Source: Ralstonia sp. ASV6 (GTDB lineage Bacteria; Pseudomonadota; Gammaproteobacteria; Burkholderiales; Burkholderiaceae). Taken from it: a DNA stretch of 54,426 nucleotides. The position numbers and the translations under genes were made by a program. The stretch lies in contig NZ_JAELUI010000017.1 of NCBI RefSeq assembly GCF_016429285.1, forward strand, positions 1-54,426, in the 5' to 3' direction. Of this stretch, positions 43,899 to 50,208 are shown piece by piece. How positions within the stretch are numbered: position 1 is the stretch's first letter; every line of letters begins with the position of its first letter. The notes under the pieces were generated by a model that saw only the letters and a list, made by a program, of their open reading frames with translations, was not told the DNA's origin and searched no databases.

Positions 43899-44618
43899 AT
43901 GGCCAAGCTGCTGATCCTGCTGTTCTCGGGGCTCAAGTTCGGCAAGCTGCTGACCACCGGCGGCACGATGCTGCTGTCGGTGGTGGTGTATGCCTTTGCG
44001 TTCGGCTGGCGCTATGCGGTGGGTTTCGTGGTGCTGCTGTTCATCCACGAGATGGGGCATTTCATGGCGGCACGCCAACGCGGGCTGGCGGTAGGTGCAC
44101 CTACCTTCATCCCGTTCGTGGGCGCGTGGATCGACCTCAAAGAGCAACCGATGGATGTCGAGACCGAGGCCTACATCGGCCTGGCAGGCCCCGTCGCGGG
44201 CACAGTCGGGGCAATGCTCTGCTACGGTCTCGCGCGCTATACCGATAGCCAGTTGCTGCTCGCCTTGGCCTACGCCGGCTGCTTCCTGAACCTGTTCAAC
44301 CTGATCCCGATGTCGCCGTTTGACGGCGGGCGCATCACGGCGGTGCTGTCGCCGCGCATCTGGTTTCTGGGGGTGCCAGTGCTGGTGGCGCTGTTCATGT
44401 GGCAACCGAGCCCGATCCTGATCCTGATCGCCGTGCTGGCCGTGCCGCAGTTGATGAAGGCATGGCGCTACGATCCGGACGCGCCGGAAAACCGCGCGTA
44501 CTACAGCATCTCCAACGAGTCGCGCCTGACCTACACCGTGTACTACATCGGCCTGGTCGTCTTCCTGGCGATGATGAGCCACGAGCTGCACGACATGCTG
44601 GGCAGCGTGCGCGCATAA
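43899..44618 (+). CDS. Site-2-protease (M50) family membrane metalloprotease
   Basis: 239 aa from ATG 43899. HEMGHFMAA carries the HExxH zinc motif in a helix, and NLIPMSPFDGGRI has the third ligand Asp (NxxPxxxxDGG). There are five to six helices and no PDZ domain, so it is a compact M50B-type protease. It should cleave within the membrane. The DUF2167 protein upstream is a likely substrate or partner, by position. A split terminator and the mobile element follow. Confidence 0.88.
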   Translation: MAKLLILLFSGLKFGKLLTTGGTMLLSVVVYAFAFGWRYAVGFVVLLFIHEMGHFMAARQRGLAVGAPTFIPFVGAWIDLKEQPMDVETEAYIGLAGPVAGTVGAMLCYGLARYTDSQLLLALAYAGCFLNLFNLIPMSPFDGGRITAVLSPRIWFLGVPVLVALFMWQPSPILILIAVLAVPQLMKAWRYDPDAPENRAYYSISNESRLTYTVYYIGLVVFLAMMSHELHDMLGSVRA

Positions 44619-44630
44619 AAAAACCTCCGC
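44617..44630. terminator. Left arm of a bidirectional terminator split by the mobile element
   Basis: AAAAAAACCTCCGC overlaps the protease stop codon. Its exact reverse complement, GCGGAGGTTTTTT, is at 50196-50208 just after the sodB 3' end. Joined, the two arms make a standard bidirectional intrinsic terminator (9-bp stem, A-run on one side, T-run on the other) for two convergent genes. Alone, each arm has no partner nearby. Confidence 0.65.
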
Positions 44631-44650
44631 AAATGTTCTTTACCCCAAGC

Positions 44651-45087
44651 ACAGATACATAGATTGAGGTGAAGCAGAGCCGGAGAGGTGGAAATCGATG
44701 TCTCACGCCCCTACATCAGGGGCGTTTTCTTTGCGTTGAATTTACAAGTTATCCCCTAACGCCACATCGTATGCATGCCGATGTAGTTGAGTAGCAGTCT
44801 TTCTTTGAAAGACGAGTAGCAGCTTTTCCGCAACACACCTGCTACCGCGTTCGTAACGGCGCCTGTTTACAAATTCTGGCAAGGCGGCGTACTATCGGCA
44901 CCCGCAGTTGGGCTGGGAGGCCTTCAGCACTGTTCGAAGCTCTCTTCTGAGAGTACGGTGAGGAATCCTTAGTAGTCCTGCTCATTTGCACCGCAGTACC
45001 CGTCTGACTTGCGCCCGCAACTCGAACCCGGGCGGCTTCAAGCCAGGCGAATCCCTTTGACTTAAGTCTCAATCAAGGAGATTCGCC
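44651..45087. promoter_or_regulatory. Leader region of the mobile element
   Basis: This 437-bp non-coding stretch holds an early terminator (44706-44732) and a striking structure at 44789-44822: GAGTAGCAG, a perfect hairpin GTCTTTC-TTT-GAAAGAC, then GAGTAGCAG again. Further on is a GC-rich pair near 45020-45050 (CGCAACTCGAACCCGGGCGG region). It should contain the promoter and may contain recombinase binding sites at the left end. CAAGGAG precedes the first gene. No tRNA is present. Confidence 0.4.
44706..44732 (+). terminator. Intrinsic terminator near the left end of the element
   Basis: CGCCCCT-ACATC-AGGGGCG followed by TTTTCTTT. It would stop read-through from the protease gene into the element now that the native terminator is split. 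Confidence 0.8.
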
Positions 45088-45387
45088 GTGGCTCGTCCAT
45101 CGTCTGAAGAACTCGCTCGCTTACGCGACGTTCAAGCTGTCACCGCGCTCTTGGCCCTTGCTACACATGCCAAGCGCGACTCTACATTCACCCCAACGAA
45201 ATCTGCAGGCACACAGCGCTGGCACGCGACCGCTGGCACTCTGCACTTCGAGCTACTGCTGAACGGGCCGAAATTCTTCGATACCCGGGCACAAGCCGGC
45301 GGCGGGGGTGCTATTGACCTCGCCATCCATCTGTATCGCCTGAGCTTCAACGAAGCAATCGGATTGCTCCACGCGCGGGGCGTCTGA
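45088..45387 (+). CDS. Small DUF3991-like protein, first gene of the recombinase operon
   Basis: 99 aa. The N-terminal half is helical (SSEELARLRDVQAVTALLALA). The C-terminal half, FFDTRAQAGGGGAIDLAIHL then SFNEAIGLLHARGV, matches the GGGGAIDLVMHL...F.EAv.wL pattern of DUF3991/primase-type domains found ahead of Toprim proteins, without zinc cysteines. Here it stands alone without Toprim. Its stop overlaps the recombinase ATG by one base (TGATG at 45385-45389), so it is translationally coupled. It may bind DNA for the recombinases or be a relic of cargo. Confidence 0.7.
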   Translation: MARPSSEELARLRDVQAVTALLALATHAKRDSTFTPTKSAGTQRWHATAGTLHFELLLNGPKFFDTRAQAGGGGAIDLAIHLYRLSFNEAIGLLHARGV

Positions 45388-46799
45388 TGTTCGTTACTGT
45401 TCGAAGCAAAGTATTCACAGATGCGACCGGCGTCCATACAGAGATACCGGCGCTGTTGACCCCTGCTGGCGTGCTCGAGCCCTTGCTCGACTATTGCCTG
45501 TCCCGCAGCCATGACCGCAGCCTGGCATGGATGGGGAAGGTCACGCGGGCGGTGAGGATGTTCCTCGAATATCTGCAAGCAAATCCGGCTGAGCGCGATA
45601 CCTACCAGCTCTTTCAGAACTTCGCTCAGCGCCTCTACACCGGAACCTTCGACCGAAATACTGGGCTTGACCCCAGTGGCTTGTGCTGGGCGCCGATGTC
45701 ACCCCATGACGCTGAGCTCATCATCACGAACCTCTCCGACTTCTTCGACTGGCTTGGAGAAATGCGCCCTGAAGCCGCTAAAGTGAACCCGCGTTATGCG
45801 GGCGGCGCCTTCGACCGGCAGACTGACGAGACTGCTTACCAGTATCGACGCAACAAGGCCTTCCTCGGACACACCTGGGCGGCGAACGCATCCCCCGCCG
45901 AAACCGGGCACCGTGTCCGAGGTCGGCGTCTGCCGAAAGTCGAGAAAGGCGAGCCTCCGGCCTTCCCGGAGGAGCGATTCGAGGAGTTGCTTGTCAAGGG
46001 GTTCTGCGCAGCTGGGCGCCATGACTACCGCGGCATGCTTATCACCCTGCTATTGCACGGCGCAGGCTTCCGCGAATCGGAACCCTTCCATCTCTTCATC
46101 TCGGACGTGTTCCCGGACCCGGCCAACCCGCGCCAAGCTAGAGTCCACATCCACCATCCCAGCTATGGCGCAGCGCCGGCTGACTGGCGTGACGAAAAGG
46201 GCCGGCCGCGCAAGGGCAATCGGACGGAATACCTCGCGCATCAGTTCGGCCTCGCGCCCCGCACCGAATTGCTGAGCCGCCAACAAGCAGGCTGGAAAGG
46301 CGGCACGCACGATGCGGCGTACTACAAGCAGGCGTACTGGTTCCTACCCGAGTATGGAGAGTGGTTCCTACAGCTCTGGCACCGTTATCTCGAACAGGTG
46401 GCCCGTGTTGACCGCAGCCATCCGTTCGCCTTCATAAACCTAGGCCGTGAGCCCGTTGGCGCTATGTACAAGCTGGCCCAATACAACAAGGCGCATGCAG
46501 CTGCCTGTGAGCGCATCGGGCTCAAGGTTGGCAAGGCGCTCGGGACTACACCGCACGGTCACCGCCACGCCTATGGCCGGCGCCTTAGAAATGCTGGTGT
46601 CGACAAGGCGAATATCCGGCGCTTCATGCATCACGGCTCGCTGGAGAGCCAGGAGGTCTACACGCAATCGAACAACCGTGAGGCTCTGGTGGCGCTCGAA
46701 GTTGCCGCGCTGCGATTGCGGGACAAGGCAGTGGGGGGGCCTAGTGCTGAGCAATATCAAAACTACGACGGAGTAATCTCATGCCAGAAAAGAACATAA
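45387..46799 (+). CDS. gmtY: Tyrosine recombinase, GmtY-like
   Basis: 470 aa. N-terminal SAM-like core-binding part (DRSLAWMGKVTRAVRMFLEYL, residues 44-63) and C-terminal catalytic domain. Catalytic residues seen: Arg229 (GAGFRESE), His390 and Arg393 (HGHRH), His416 (MHHGS) and Tyr425 (EVYTQS). The full set is present, so it should be active. In the trio it is the first recombinase. It overlaps the next gene by 19 bp. Assignment to GmtY is by architecture and order, from memory of the family. Confidence 0.8.
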   Translation: MFVTVRSKVFTDATGVHTEIPALLTPAGVLEPLLDYCLSRSHDRSLAWMGKVTRAVRMFLEYLQANPAERDTYQLFQNFAQRLYTGTFDRNTGLDPSGLCWAPMSPHDAELIITNLSDFFDWLGEMRPEAAKVNPRYAGGAFDRQTDETAYQYRRNKAFLGHTWAANASPAETGHRVRGRRLPKVEKGEPPAFPEERFEELLVKGFCAAGRHDYRGMLITLLLHGAGFRESEPFHLFISDVFPDPANPRQARVHIHHPSYGAAPADWRDEKGRPRKGNRTEYLAHQFGLAPRTELLSRQQAGWKGGTHDAAYYKQAYWFLPEYGEWFLQLWHRYLEQVARVDRSHPFAFINLGREPVGAMYKLAQYNKAHAAACERIGLKVGKALGTTPHGHRHAYGRRLRNAGVDKANIRRFMHHGSLESQEVYTQSNNREALVALEVAALRLRDKAVGGPSAEQYQNYDGVISCQKRT

Positions 46800-49381
46800 C
46801 GAAAATGCACAAGACGTCCGTCATTGAAGCTCCTCCAAAGGAGAAAGGGGTGAGGCGAGAAACGGATACTACCCTCGGTTGGGTCAAGCGCGACTATCCG
46901 CAACTCGCTGCTTGGCGTGAGTTGGCTGTGTCGTGGCTCAAGGGTGAAACGCGAGGTATTGCTCCAAGACTCCAAGCCTTAGGGATATTCTTCGTTCGCT
47001 ATCTAATCCAGCAAGGTCTGCCGCTCGACCTGGCAGCATTGTTGAAACGCGACGCAATTCTGCCCGACTTCTATCGAACGACCTGCCCAGATTCAAGGCA
47101 AGGCATCGAATACAACAATATCATCCACGCCTTTCTGAACTTCGTGCTACTGCACGAGTTCAGCCACGCCGCCGACGACGGCCAACTGGTAGTCTCGCCG
47201 GCGTTTCGCAACCCCGTGCCCCGGATGTCCAAGAGCGGCCTGCCTCGTCGCGACGAGAGCGTGCATTCGCCGCTTCCATACGGCTACATTGACGAATTAC
47301 GGCAGATGCTCGCTGCTGGGCCTCACTTCCGCGATTGGCAGTGGGCGCAGAGTGCGTTGGGAGCCGAAATCGGTCAGCGCGGGCCTGGTGGGCCCGACTG
47401 GTTCGAGGTAAGCGAAGAGCAGATTGACCGGCACGACCCGGACTGCGTATGGCGCGAGCGACCAATGGCGAATGGAACGCGCTTGGAGATGTGGAGCCCA
47501 GTTCGTTGGGTGGCTCTGCTCGTGAAGCTCATCCTGCCACTCCGTACGTTTCAGGTTCGCATGCTCGACTCGGGCGAAGCCGATACTTGGCGCTACACGG
47601 CGGGGAAATGGACGCTGAGCCTAAGCCAGCTCGCACAGGGTAGCGAACGCCGGCCCTTGCAACAGGGCGTGTTCCGCCGCAGCGCCTCGCTAGTCGAAGG
47701 CGAGGCGGTCTCGACCGTGCTCTACATCAACACCAATAAGACCGCCGACATCGCAAAGTCCGGGCCGGAGAAGGGGTACGTGTTGCCGTGGTCCTTTGGC
47801 GGACCGGTACATCAGGACGTCTTCTACTGGCTTGAAAAACTCCGCGACTGGCAAGCAAAGTACAACGCCGTCGGGAGGCGTACTGCCTGGACAGAACTGG
47901 ATGGCCGCCATATGCAGGCGAAGAGCGCCGTGCAATTGGCTGAATATCCGGACACGTGCTTCCTCTTTAGAGCGCCAGAGGCCGTCGAAGGAGAGCGCCA
48001 TCTTCCTATCCGAAACAGGGGGCTGGATAGTTGCTGGTTCCGCCTGCTAGACGCACTGGAGCTGCGGCTAGCAGCCCGGGGCGAGACTCATCGCAACGGC
48101 ACGCCAATTCGCTTCCTCCCGCCGCCGGAGGAGGACAATAATGGAACGACAACTCTCTTCCCCCTGCACAGCCTACGTGTCTCCCTTATCACTGCGTTGG
48201 CACTTGAAGGCCAAGTACCATTCCCCGTCCTGCAAAAACTTGTCGGCCACAGTCGCCTGCTAATGACCTTGTACTACACGAAGCCCGGCGCGTCGCGCAT
48301 CCGCGAAGTGCTCCATGGCGCGGCGGAGCGGCTCGAGGCGAACAAGGAGGTGAGCATCCAGAACTTCCTACTCGACACCGAGCATGACGAACTCCTGCAG
48401 AATGCCATCTGTAACAGCGTGCCGAGCCTCGCCGCCTGCATCCCACAGCATCCGGCCGCGCGCAATCCGGCAGGCTGGATGCCGATGCACCACGGCCTGT
48501 GTCTTGTCGGCGGCAGCACCAGCGAGGTCGAGGAAAACGGCGCGGTGGGAGGTTGCTACAACGGCGGTCCAAACATCGGCTCAGCTTCAGCCCCCAGGCA
48601 CGGACCCGTTCCGGGCGGCAGCCGTAACTGCGTCCGCTGTCGCTGGTTCGTGACGGAGCCGCACCACCTGCCGGCGCTGGCCGCCCACTTCAACACGCTC
48701 GCCTATTGCTTCGACGAGGCGCGAAACTCCTGTCTCATTCGGGAAAACGAGCTTCAAGACCTGAAGAAGCAGAAAGCTGATGCGGAAGACGCCGGTCGGC
48801 CGTTCACCGGACTGGACGCCTACCGGCAGGCGGAACGGGTGTGGGAGAGTGCCATGAAGCGATTCAGCGACCTTGCCGAAGACCTGGTGGCCTGTTGGCG
48901 GCTCATCGAACGTTGCAAGGTCGCGCTGGAAGCCCCGCAGGGCGACGGCACGCAATTGGTGGCCGCCGGCACGGTGCGAGACGTCCATGTCGGCTTCGAG
49001 GAAACAGAGTCAGAATTGCTGCAACTCACCGGCGTGTGTGAGAGCGTCGAGGTCTACCCCGACCTCGAACCAGGCAAGGCCATATTCCGCCGCAGCCAGT
49101 TGCTCGATGCGGTCCTCTTCAACGAAGACCTGCCACCTGTGTTCATGCTGTTGAGTGAACAGGAGCAACTCCTCGCCGGCAACGCCTTCATGCGCCGCTT
49201 GGCCGAGCAGATGAACCCAGCGAATCCCGCGCTCGGCCAGCGCCAAGTGATTAGCTTGATGGACGCGGGTGCGAGCCTTGGTCGGCACTTCGACGTGGAC
49301 CTCACCTCGCTGCTGCCTAAAACAACTCGCAGCCAATCGTTACCTGCTGCGCATCGGTTCCTCGTGGAGGTCGAAGCATGA
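46781..49381 (+). CDS. gmtZ: Large tyrosine recombinase with C-terminal Cys region, GmtZ-like (VPA1269 family)
   Basis: 866 aa. The catalytic domain spans residues ~230-505: Arg255 (LPLRTF), His463 and Arg466 (HSLRV), His490 (LVGHS) and Tyr499 (LYYTKPG). After it comes a ~360-aa extension with Cys574, Cys592, Cys617 and Cys620 (CVRCRWF), a possible zinc site, then a helical/coiled stretch (NELQDLKKQKADAEDA). This two-part plan recalls TnpB of Tn554. It starts inside gmtY and ends overlapping gmtX by 4 bp. Both recombinases having complete active sites suggests a heteromeric integrase. Confidence 0.8.
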   Translation: MPEKNITKMHKTSVIEAPPKEKGVRRETDTTLGWVKRDYPQLAAWRELAVSWLKGETRGIAPRLQALGIFFVRYLIQQGLPLDLAALLKRDAILPDFYRTTCPDSRQGIEYNNIIHAFLNFVLLHEFSHAADDGQLVVSPAFRNPVPRMSKSGLPRRDESVHSPLPYGYIDELRQMLAAGPHFRDWQWAQSALGAEIGQRGPGGPDWFEVSEEQIDRHDPDCVWRERPMANGTRLEMWSPVRWVALLVKLILPLRTFQVRMLDSGEADTWRYTAGKWTLSLSQLAQGSERRPLQQGVFRRSASLVEGEAVSTVLYINTNKTADIAKSGPEKGYVLPWSFGGPVHQDVFYWLEKLRDWQAKYNAVGRRTAWTELDGRHMQAKSAVQLAEYPDTCFLFRAPEAVEGERHLPIRNRGLDSCWFRLLDALELRLAARGETHRNGTPIRFLPPPEEDNNGTTTLFPLHSLRVSLITALALEGQVPFPVLQKLVGHSRLLMTLYYTKPGASRIREVLHGAAERLEANKEVSIQNFLLDTEHDELLQNAICNSVPSLAACIPQHPAARNPAGWMPMHHGLCLVGGSTSEVEENGAVGGCYNGGPNIGSASAPRHGPVPGGSRNCVRCRWFVTEPHHLPALAAHFNTLAYCFDEARNSCLIRENELQDLKKQKADAEDAGRPFTGLDAYRQAERVWESAMKRFSDLAEDLVACWRLIERCKVALEAPQGDGTQLVAAGTVRDVHVGFEETESELLQLTGVCESVEVYPDLEPGKAIFRRSQLLDAVLFNEDLPPVFMLLSEQEQLLAGNAFMRRLAEQMNPANPALGQRQVISLMDAGASLGRHFDVDLTSLLPKTTRSQSLPAAHRFLVEVEA

Positions 49382-50031
49382 ATATGAGGACGGACATCCA
49401 CCCGGACGCAGTCCTTGAATCACTGCTCGCCAAGGGCGGACGCTCGCACCGGCGCGCAAATCTCGCGAGAATGCACGAACTTTGCCGTCGGCAGCATGAG
49501 ACAGGCGGGCGCGACTTCTCGCTGCCCTCTGTTGGCCGGCTGGCCGAAGCCGAGGGCATTATGAAAGGCCGAGCCCTCTATAACGCTCAGTCTGCGGACT
49601 ACCGCGAACTCATTCTGGCCTGGTCAGCCTATGCTGGACCGCCTTCACCGAAAGCGCCAAGGACGCTGGCGAGCCATGACTACCTCATGCGCATCGAAGA
49701 CCCCGCTATCCGCTCTATCATGCAGGCCATCGTTGCGGAACGCGACAAGCTCAAGGCGCAACTCAACGTGTTGAAAGCTAACGTGCAAGTGACCGTGGAC
49801 CGGCGGCCACTTGGCGCGGATGTCGCCGCACCTGGTTCGGTCGCCGTGCTCGCCATGGCCGCCCAGTTCACGCCTTCGGAGCGCCAAGCATTGCAAAAGG
49901 CTGTATCGACACCTTACCTCGAAGAACGTGGGCTCCGGGAGGGTAGCCACGGCGAAATCGTGAATGAGCGGGGGCGAACCATCTTCGAGGTGGGATTCGC
50001 GCGTGCGATTCGCAAAGTGCTAGGTGATTGA
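49378..50031 (+). CDS. gmtX: GmtX-like third protein of the trio
   Basis: 217 aa, largely helical. HPDAVLESLLAKG, then RANLARMHELCRRQHETGGRDFS and VGRLAEAEGIMKGRALYNAQS suggest an HTH-type DNA-binding N-terminus. A coiled-coil segment follows (VAERDKLKAQLNVLKANVQV). It plays the place of TnpC in Tn554, a small accessory factor. The ATG overlaps the gmtZ stop (ATGA at 49378-49381). No enzymatic motif. It is the last gene before the element's right end. Confidence 0.75.
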   Translation: MNMRTDIHPDAVLESLLAKGGRSHRRANLARMHELCRRQHETGGRDFSLPSVGRLAEAEGIMKGRALYNAQSADYRELILAWSAYAGPPSPKAPRTLASHDYLMRIEDPAIRSIMQAIVAERDKLKAQLNVLKANVQVTVDRRPLGADVAAPGSVAVLAMAAQFTPSERQALQKAVSTPYLEERGLREGSHGEIVNERGRTIFEVGFARAIRKVLGD

Positions 50032-50046
50032 CCAACACAATGAAAA

Positions 50047-50072
50047 GGCGCCGACAAAAAATCGTCGGCGCC
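50047..50072 (+). terminator. Hairpin after gmtX
   Basis: A perfect 9-bp stem (GGCGCCGAC / GTCGGCGCC) 15 bp after the gmtX stop, without a T-run. A second perfect small palindrome, GATGTATCCATACATC, lies at 50092-50107 and may be a protein site near the right end. Confidence 0.6.
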
Positions 50073-50195
50073 AATAGATACGATGCAATGGGATGTATCC
50101 ATACATCGAAAGCCTTGGGACACAGAAGCCTTACAAATGAAGCCTTCCGCGATACCCACCCACGAACTATGTACGGTTACGGTATAAGTCCAAGC

Positions 50196-50208
50196 GCGGA
50201 GGTTTTTT
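50196..50208. terminator. Right arm of the split bidirectional terminator
   Basis: GCGGAGGTTTTTT, the exact reverse complement of 44618-44630, lies 28 bp past the sodB stop. It abuts the direct repeat CCAAGC of the element. Confidence 0.65.

Follow-up and report, generated by a model that had tools for sequence, protein, structure and literature searches.

Gamma-Mobile-Trio (GMT) islands are vehicles for the spread of defence systems and antibacterial toxins, and their founding description is said to be that of Mahata et al. 2024. Tn554, like GMT, has several tyrosine recombinases together with a small accessory protein. In strand-biased circularizing integrative elements (SE elements), the accessible parts of two papers give the gene set as intA-CDS2(tfp)-intB-CDS4(srap), and describe an attL that takes its 6 bp from the target and an attR that takes its 6 bp from the donor (PMC9345347, PMC10214605). 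GInt islands, according to the accessible part of their description, insert at an ABC-transporter gene, at ssb and at a few other places (PMC5385486), and in Tn916 the accessible part of the source reports a proven terminator near the left end that insulates the genes of the element (PMC11658703). In the literature examined, as far as its text was accessible, the choice of landing sites by GMT elements was left open. Here we analyzed the whole contig NZ_JAELUI010000017.1 of Ralstonia sp. ASV6 (GCF_016429285.1; 54,426 nt, hereafter the window), which carries the genes gmtY, gmtZ and gmtX. Taking the two statements jointly, we think it quite probable that the window holds an intact, cargo-free GMT element about 5.56 kb long, and that GMT elements insert into terminator stem-loops by means of GmtY and GmtZ, leaving the loop of the target at the left end and a hexamer from the donor at the right end. 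Loci and genomes are given below by our own numbers (L and G, respectively).

The first-pass annotation of this DNA had described three overlapping genes of 470, 866 and 217 aa, and the open reading frames were indeed found at these sizes, with overlaps of 19 nt between gmtY and gmtZ and of 4 nt between gmtZ and gmtX. Their proposed GMT identity was borne out by a search with profile hidden Markov models: the three products, encoded in the order Y-Z-X, all scored above the curated NCBIfam cut-offs (Table 1), and GmtZ also matched PF13009 of Pfam. The Arg/His-x-x-Arg/His/Tyr sets, said to be complete in the first two genes, correspond to the candidate catalytic residues R229, H390-x-x-R393, H415/H416 and Y425 in GmtY and R255/R260, H463-x-x-R466, H490 and Y498/Y499 in GmtZ, which were invariant in 17/17 and 15/15 aligned sequences, respectively. 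Judged by its sequence, the window trio is a genuine GMT element with almost no cargo.

The insertion point of this element is the loop of a terminator hairpin between an M50-protease gene and sodB, and the flanks of the element, AAAAAACCTCCGC and GCGGAGGTTTTTT, are the two arms of one intrinsic terminator. A 641-bp query taken from the left flank matched 15 of 16 genomes of the genus (own genome included), some of them through short fragments, and most of the long matches ended at the hairpin. In 9 of the 15 other genus genomes the M50 gene, the hairpin and sodB are consecutive and the element is absent, so that the empty-site allele looked for in related genomes does exist. In the nearest congener, G011, the flank is 94% identical and has the same AAAT loop, and the uninterrupted hairpin folds with -19.7 kcal/mol (z -6.3). 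The empty site of the window element has a 13-bp stem and a 4-nt loop. The G011 genome also carries two other, more distant GMT trios elsewhere (L095, L097).

We defined the ends of the element from homology among elements, independently of the flanks. The empty site and the ends conserved in relatives together give borders of about 44636-50190 for the element, followed by a right flanking hexamer at 50191-50196 (within 1 nt); at the right end, conservation across 13 loci (window included) reaches about GGTATAAGT and gives way to divergence beyond it. The borders proposed earlier, 44645-50195, followed a CCAAGC repeat and had to be corrected, because that repeat lies downstream of both the empty site and the conserved left end. 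Gene orientation taken from raw open reading frames is unreliable in GC-rich DNA and was not used.

Empty sites were compared for four insertions: that of the window, L190 and L189 in E. coli, and L164 in Shewanella. The L190 element lies between crcB and cspE in E. coli S1-CAM-01-A, and the empty site in WCHEC020031 and PS2Canimalfeces12 is the hairpin ACCCGCT-GATTA-AGCGGGT. The L189 element lies between ygcG and eno in E. coli TW05614, where two other strains have a perfect 12-bp stem with the 6-nt loop CCGGAG. For L164, Shewanella sp. ANA-3 was compared with G682; for L055, no plasmid record with an empty site was found. In all four comparisons the loop of the target is retained at the left junction, and about 6 nt foreign to the target are present at the right one. 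Right and left hexamers agree at 4 of 6 bases both in the window and in L190. L189 and L174, whose gmtZ genes are 98.8% identical, lie in different terminators and differ in their left hexamers, and have the right hexamer AAGTAT in common.

The splitting of terminators recurs across GMT elements. We scanned 90 loci and placed both ends by score in 27, from which L107 (left end at the start of the record) and L110 and L118 (under 30 nt of flank) were excluded, leaving 24 elements; most of the remaining loci come from branches with ends that do not match the motif, or are truncated where a contig stops. Nine elements of the Vibrio-type branch were added, giving 33 insertions; L158 and L162, which end at their contig ends, and other loci of this branch, which have no mapped right end, were left out. 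The number of independent events is lower than 33, because L125 and L126 are identical copies and L087 and L088 share one site. The latter two come from two genera and occupy apparently the same site in opposite orientations, and the right hexamer of each resembles the left hexamer of the other.

The results show that the inverted-repeat score across the junctions averaged 9.7 in the 24 elements and 5.0 in 552 mismatched pairs, with none of 5000 permutations as high. A score of at least 10 was reached by 22 of the 33 insertions versus 40 of 19,997 positions drawn at random from the same loci, and a score of at least 10 plus an A- or T-run at the arm ends (the strict rule) by 15/33 versus 9/19,997. 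Of the 23 junctions that score at least 9, 16 have a stem beginning 4-8 nt away from the left junction. Other unrelated sites of split terminators include L055, L112, L113, L114, L115, L119, L124, L134, L139 and L151. In the Vibrio/Shewanella/enterobacterial branch, where GmtZ is about 37-39% identical to that of the window (in the loci measured, the two E. coli copies not among them), seven of nine elements score at least 10 and one scores 9. Seven more Vibrio-type loci offer a left flank only, and a script found an A-run in six of them; in the left flank of L167 the script picked the wrong place, and an A-run is present there too. As far as the junctions tell, the target common to these elements is a palindrome, not a sequence.

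The element also bears inward-facing terminators of its own at both ends (Table 1). The left one reads ACGCCCCTacatcAGGGGCGTTTTCTTT on the plus strand, and the right hairpin carries its T-run on the minus strand. The left pattern of hairpin plus T-run was found in 26 of 34 left ends. Imperfect versions of the hairpin occur in L056, L087 and L130 and degenerate ones in L106 and L150, and in L091, L108 and L146 it has no T-run. The left end of the Vibrio branch has a different hairpin, mostly AAGGCAGAGAAATCTGCCTTTTT.

The mechanism that we propose builds on features demonstrated at the level of DNA sequence, namely the trio, its borders, the split hairpin, the empty alleles, the foreign hexamer, the borne terminators and the recurrence in relatives. 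The tyrosine recombinases GmtY and GmtZ, with GmtX helping, would exchange strands at the ends of the element, a division of labour that we infer. The target would be the stem-loop of an intrinsic terminator, whose arms act as inverted half-sites and whose loop is the crossover region of about 6 bp; target sequences may therefore vary, provided that they are palindromic. The left junction would retain the loop of the target, and the right junction would gain about 6 bp from the donor site, where they adjoined the left end, an origin of the right hexamer that probably holds as a general rule. Insertion would destroy the terminator of the host. Because the borne terminators face inwards, each would halt transcription that enters from the neighbour with the split terminator; the borne hairpins could thus replace the split host terminators, and termination on both sides would presumably be restored. 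The window copy itself is presumably mobile.

Several points weigh against this model. Neither excision, nor a circle, nor integration was observed. Eleven of the 33 junctions score below 10, and L174 (9) and L111 (7.5) among them are yet terminator-like. L056, L104, L106, L091, L108 and L146 do not lie in recognisable terminators and do not fit, and the subclade of L091, L108 and L146 (right end also in L107 and L138) has a common target sequence that is not a terminator. Under the strict rule, seven of the 22 junctions scoring at least 10 have no A- or T-run, and those of L086, L087 and L088 resemble simple palindromes. Mismatched pairs are a weaker control for the Vibrio-type elements (mean 6.2; 10 of 72 pairs at 9 or above), because A- and T-runs pair by themselves, and part of the enrichment could reflect which insertions survive, namely those outside genes. 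The hexamer AAGTAT could also be the fixed end of the L189/L174 sub-lineage. The attB of SE elements is reported, in the accessible parts of the papers, to be without an inverted repeat (PMC9345347, PMC10214605). Finally, L125 and L126, identical copies in one genome of Paraburkholderia caffeinitolerans, score 7.5 and 5.5 with their own halves and 14 and 10.5 when the left half of one is paired with the right half of the other, so that they fit the model only if the halves are exchanged. For L155, the left arm of L159 in the same genome is a better partner (8.5, versus at most 7.0 for 32 other right flanks), and L155 perhaps fits with that half. The exchanged terminator halves in L125/L126 and L155/L159 may reflect recombination between copies or misassembly. 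Grouped by terminator, however, L125 and L126 speak for the model: CTTTGG is the right hexamer of one insertion and the left hexamer of the other, which is what copying of one from the other would produce.

The model can be taken further by supposing that targets are chosen by the shape of the hairpin, not by its sequence: extruded or single-stranded terminator stem-loops would be the attachment sites, any intrinsic terminator in any bacterium would be a landing pad, the replacement terminators would be the cost, and orf99, the small gene upstream of gmtY, would assist on single-stranded DNA where it is present. In carrying replacement terminators, the elements would then resemble islands that rebuild the tRNA gene into which they insert. 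Integron integrases, which use attC, offer a parallel for stem-loops as attachment sites. We hold this extension tentatively, at somewhat less than an even chance. We consider it unlikely that the recombinases are instead drawn to paused or terminating RNA polymerase and not to the shape of the DNA. Most of the fitting targets are terminators with A- or T-runs, as such coupling to transcription would predict, but L086, L087 and L088 split palindromes without these runs, and tyrosine recombinases generally bind inverted half-sites directly.

More doubtful still is survivor bias, in which integration is loose, only intergenic insertions persist, and terminators merely occupy intergenic space. 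All four annotated or congener-supported sites do lie beside gene ends; survival, however, would not centre insertions in loops at the frequency given above, nor would it make the stems start at a distance of a few nt on either side of the junction, and we regard this account as very improbable. Classical integration, sequence-specific and with the same overlap at either end, has slightly less in its favour and was rejected as scarcely credible. One subclade (L091, L108, L146) does have a common target sequence, and the two hexamers are identical in L086, L106 and L126, but in no more than these three of the 33 insertions, and target sequences differ widely.

The host and the small size of the window element had also been read as signs of an unusual GMT copy. 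GmtZ relatives were found in 147 of 72,556 plasmid records, with Burkholderia the commonest genus (36), and RefSeq already has gmtY and/or gmtX annotated by name in Cupriavidus, Delftia, Caballeronia and Burkholderia; GMT elements are frequent among Betaproteobacteria, and a host outside the usual GMT group is thus not the oddity that the first-pass annotation took it for. The GmtZ cut-off was passed in 13 of 299 genomes of the window's family, and GmtZ relatives occurred in 2 of 369 genomes sampled from its class (own genome included in both). A scan of named genomes, taken for the best 80 of 122 confirmed stretches, gave hosts in many Proteobacteria, including Microvirga (Alphaproteobacteria), plus a few metagenome-assembled genomes of other phyla. 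No relative was found in the viral contigs searched. The E. coli genomes had no match to the gmtZ DNA of the window, and the gmtZ DNA of a Leclercia element was matched in 5 of 5426 of them.

Among the 24 elements for which both ends were used, ten measure 5.1-5.7 kb, and bare GMT elements are not rare. That the window holds a decayed or empty GMT island in an ordinary location, as suggested earlier since there is no cargo gene beyond the core, is therefore most improbable, and neither a bare ancestor nor decay is needed to explain an element whose open reading frames and ends are intact and which ten relatives match in size. Copies with larger cargo do exist among the relatives and share their ends with the window element: larger ones such as L104, L105 and L056 have cargo between gmtX and the conserved right end, and L108 has arsenic-resistance genes between the left end and gmtY. 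Arsenic-resistance genes lie inside the element in L107 as well as in L108. The E. coli TW05614 element (L189, 17355-23006) has annotated cargo that includes ThiF-family, multiubiquitin-domain and DUF6527 proteins.

The 99-aa gene had been counted as the only cargo of the window element, a view that does not hold, as the orf99 family is a recurrent neighbour directly upstream of gmtY in relatives. The window's orf99 has zero Cys, the invariant columns of 13 sequences contain neither Cys nor His, and the Cys/His set of DNA-primase zinc-binding domains was not found in it. Sequence searches with orf99 gave no match in Pfam, NCBIfam or PDB at E <= 1, and the best in PHROGs was 0.14. We rejected orf99 as the selector of targets, since elements without a detected orf99 (L111, L114, L119, L124, L134 and the Vibrio-type elements) also lie in terminators. 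Upstream of orf99, at 44786-44821, the window has the palindrome GTCTTTCTTTGAAAGAC between GAGTAGC repeats, a possible candidate operator, which recurs in many orf99-bearing loci and before a second operon in L106.

This second operon (L106, 1074-6392, on a plasmid of Caballeronia sp. SBC1) has tyrosine-recombinase-like genes of 386, 546, 614 and 112 aa; it is gin-like by layout only, and its own orf99 homologue directly upstream links the two kinds of element. Alignment of GmtZ and GmtY with its large gin-like recombinases was limited to the catalytic region, at low probability, and the GmtX profile against one small gin-like reading frame of L106 gave an hhalign probability of 0.2%, authentic GinD and TnpC not being among the comparisons. 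Against PDB sequences, GmtX matched C.BclI at E 0.046, and the other matches had no stretch that passed alone. An Rfam search of the window gave no match.

Table 1. Features of the window element and of its insertion site.
Feature	Coordinates	Strand	Remarks
Left arm of split host terminator	44617..44630		A-run + CCTCCGC; pairs with 50196-50208; intact in congeners
Left junction hexamer CAAATG	44630..44635		target-derived; border within 1 nt; same bases in empty site of G011/L002
Left terminus TTCTTTACCCC..ATACATAG	44636..44662		conserved in 34 loci including the window
Left-end terminator, inward-facing	44705..44732	+	fold of 44695-44740: -19 kcal/mol, z -4.3; conserved
orf99	45088..45387	+	99 aa; recurrent small gene before gmtY; candidate primase zinc-binding-domain-like fold without cysteines
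gmtY	45387..46799	+	470 aa; tyrosine recombinase; NF040693, 520.5 bits (cut-off 340)
gmtZ	46781..49381	+	866 aa; tyrosine recombinase/integrase; NF047926, 1000.3 bits (cut-off 600)
gmtX	49378..50031	+	217 aa; accessory protein; NF040692, 225.9 bits (cut-off 40)
Right-end terminator, inward-facing	50043..50072	-	fold of 50038-50082, minus strand: -22.3 kcal/mol, z -6.2; recurs in relatives
Right terminus AACTATGTAC..GGTATAAGTC	50165..50190		conserved in 13 loci including the window, then divergence
Right junction hexamer CAAGCG	50191..50196		border within 1 nt; absent from empty site; 4/6 bases as in left hexamer
Right arm of split host terminator	50196..50208		GCGGAGG + T-run

If the terminator model is true, a structural target that recurs in bacterial genomes would explain why GMT elements have a wide host range, occupy many unrelated sites and do little harm, and tyrosine recombinases that accept many different terminator hairpins would represent an unusual choice of target. 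The model gives exact borders for the elements, and therefore GMT cargo can be listed automatically. In the literature covered, as far as its text was accessible, we found no report of tyrosine-recombinase elements that target terminators; the novelty is provisional, because the founding GMT paper lies outside that coverage. The word "terminator" occurs 0 times in the main texts, as accessible, of the SE papers (PMC9345347, PMC10214605), the GInt paper (PMC5385486) and the papers that mention GMT.

With GMT islands the window element shares GmtY, GmtZ and GmtX above the NCBIfam cut-offs in the same order, and ends common to cargo-bearing relatives; it differs in being without cargo, and the insertion into terminator loops, the borne terminators and the right hexamer are described here. 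Group IIC introns, whose target stem-loops are often terminators, differ in being retroelements with a ribozyme, and Tn916, known for its coupling sequences and AT-rich targets, differs in being conjugative. In the accessible parts of their descriptions, the former resemble GMT elements in having a DNA stem-loop as target (PMC10190682) and the latter in its terminator near the left end (PMC11658703). GInt islands, in the accessible part of the paper, are alike in their several tyrosine recombinases and small accessory protein (PMC5385486). SE elements, too, have tyrosine recombinases, and their hexamers behave alike: in the window and its relatives the left hexamer comes from the target and the right one is foreign (4/4), and the rule given for SE-6945 in the accessible part of its description (PMC9345347) is the same as the one proposed here for the origin of the right hexamer. 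SE elements differ in the gene set described for them and in an attB reported, in the accessible parts of the papers, to be without an inverted repeat, whereas the window element split a 13-bp stem with a 4-nt loop.

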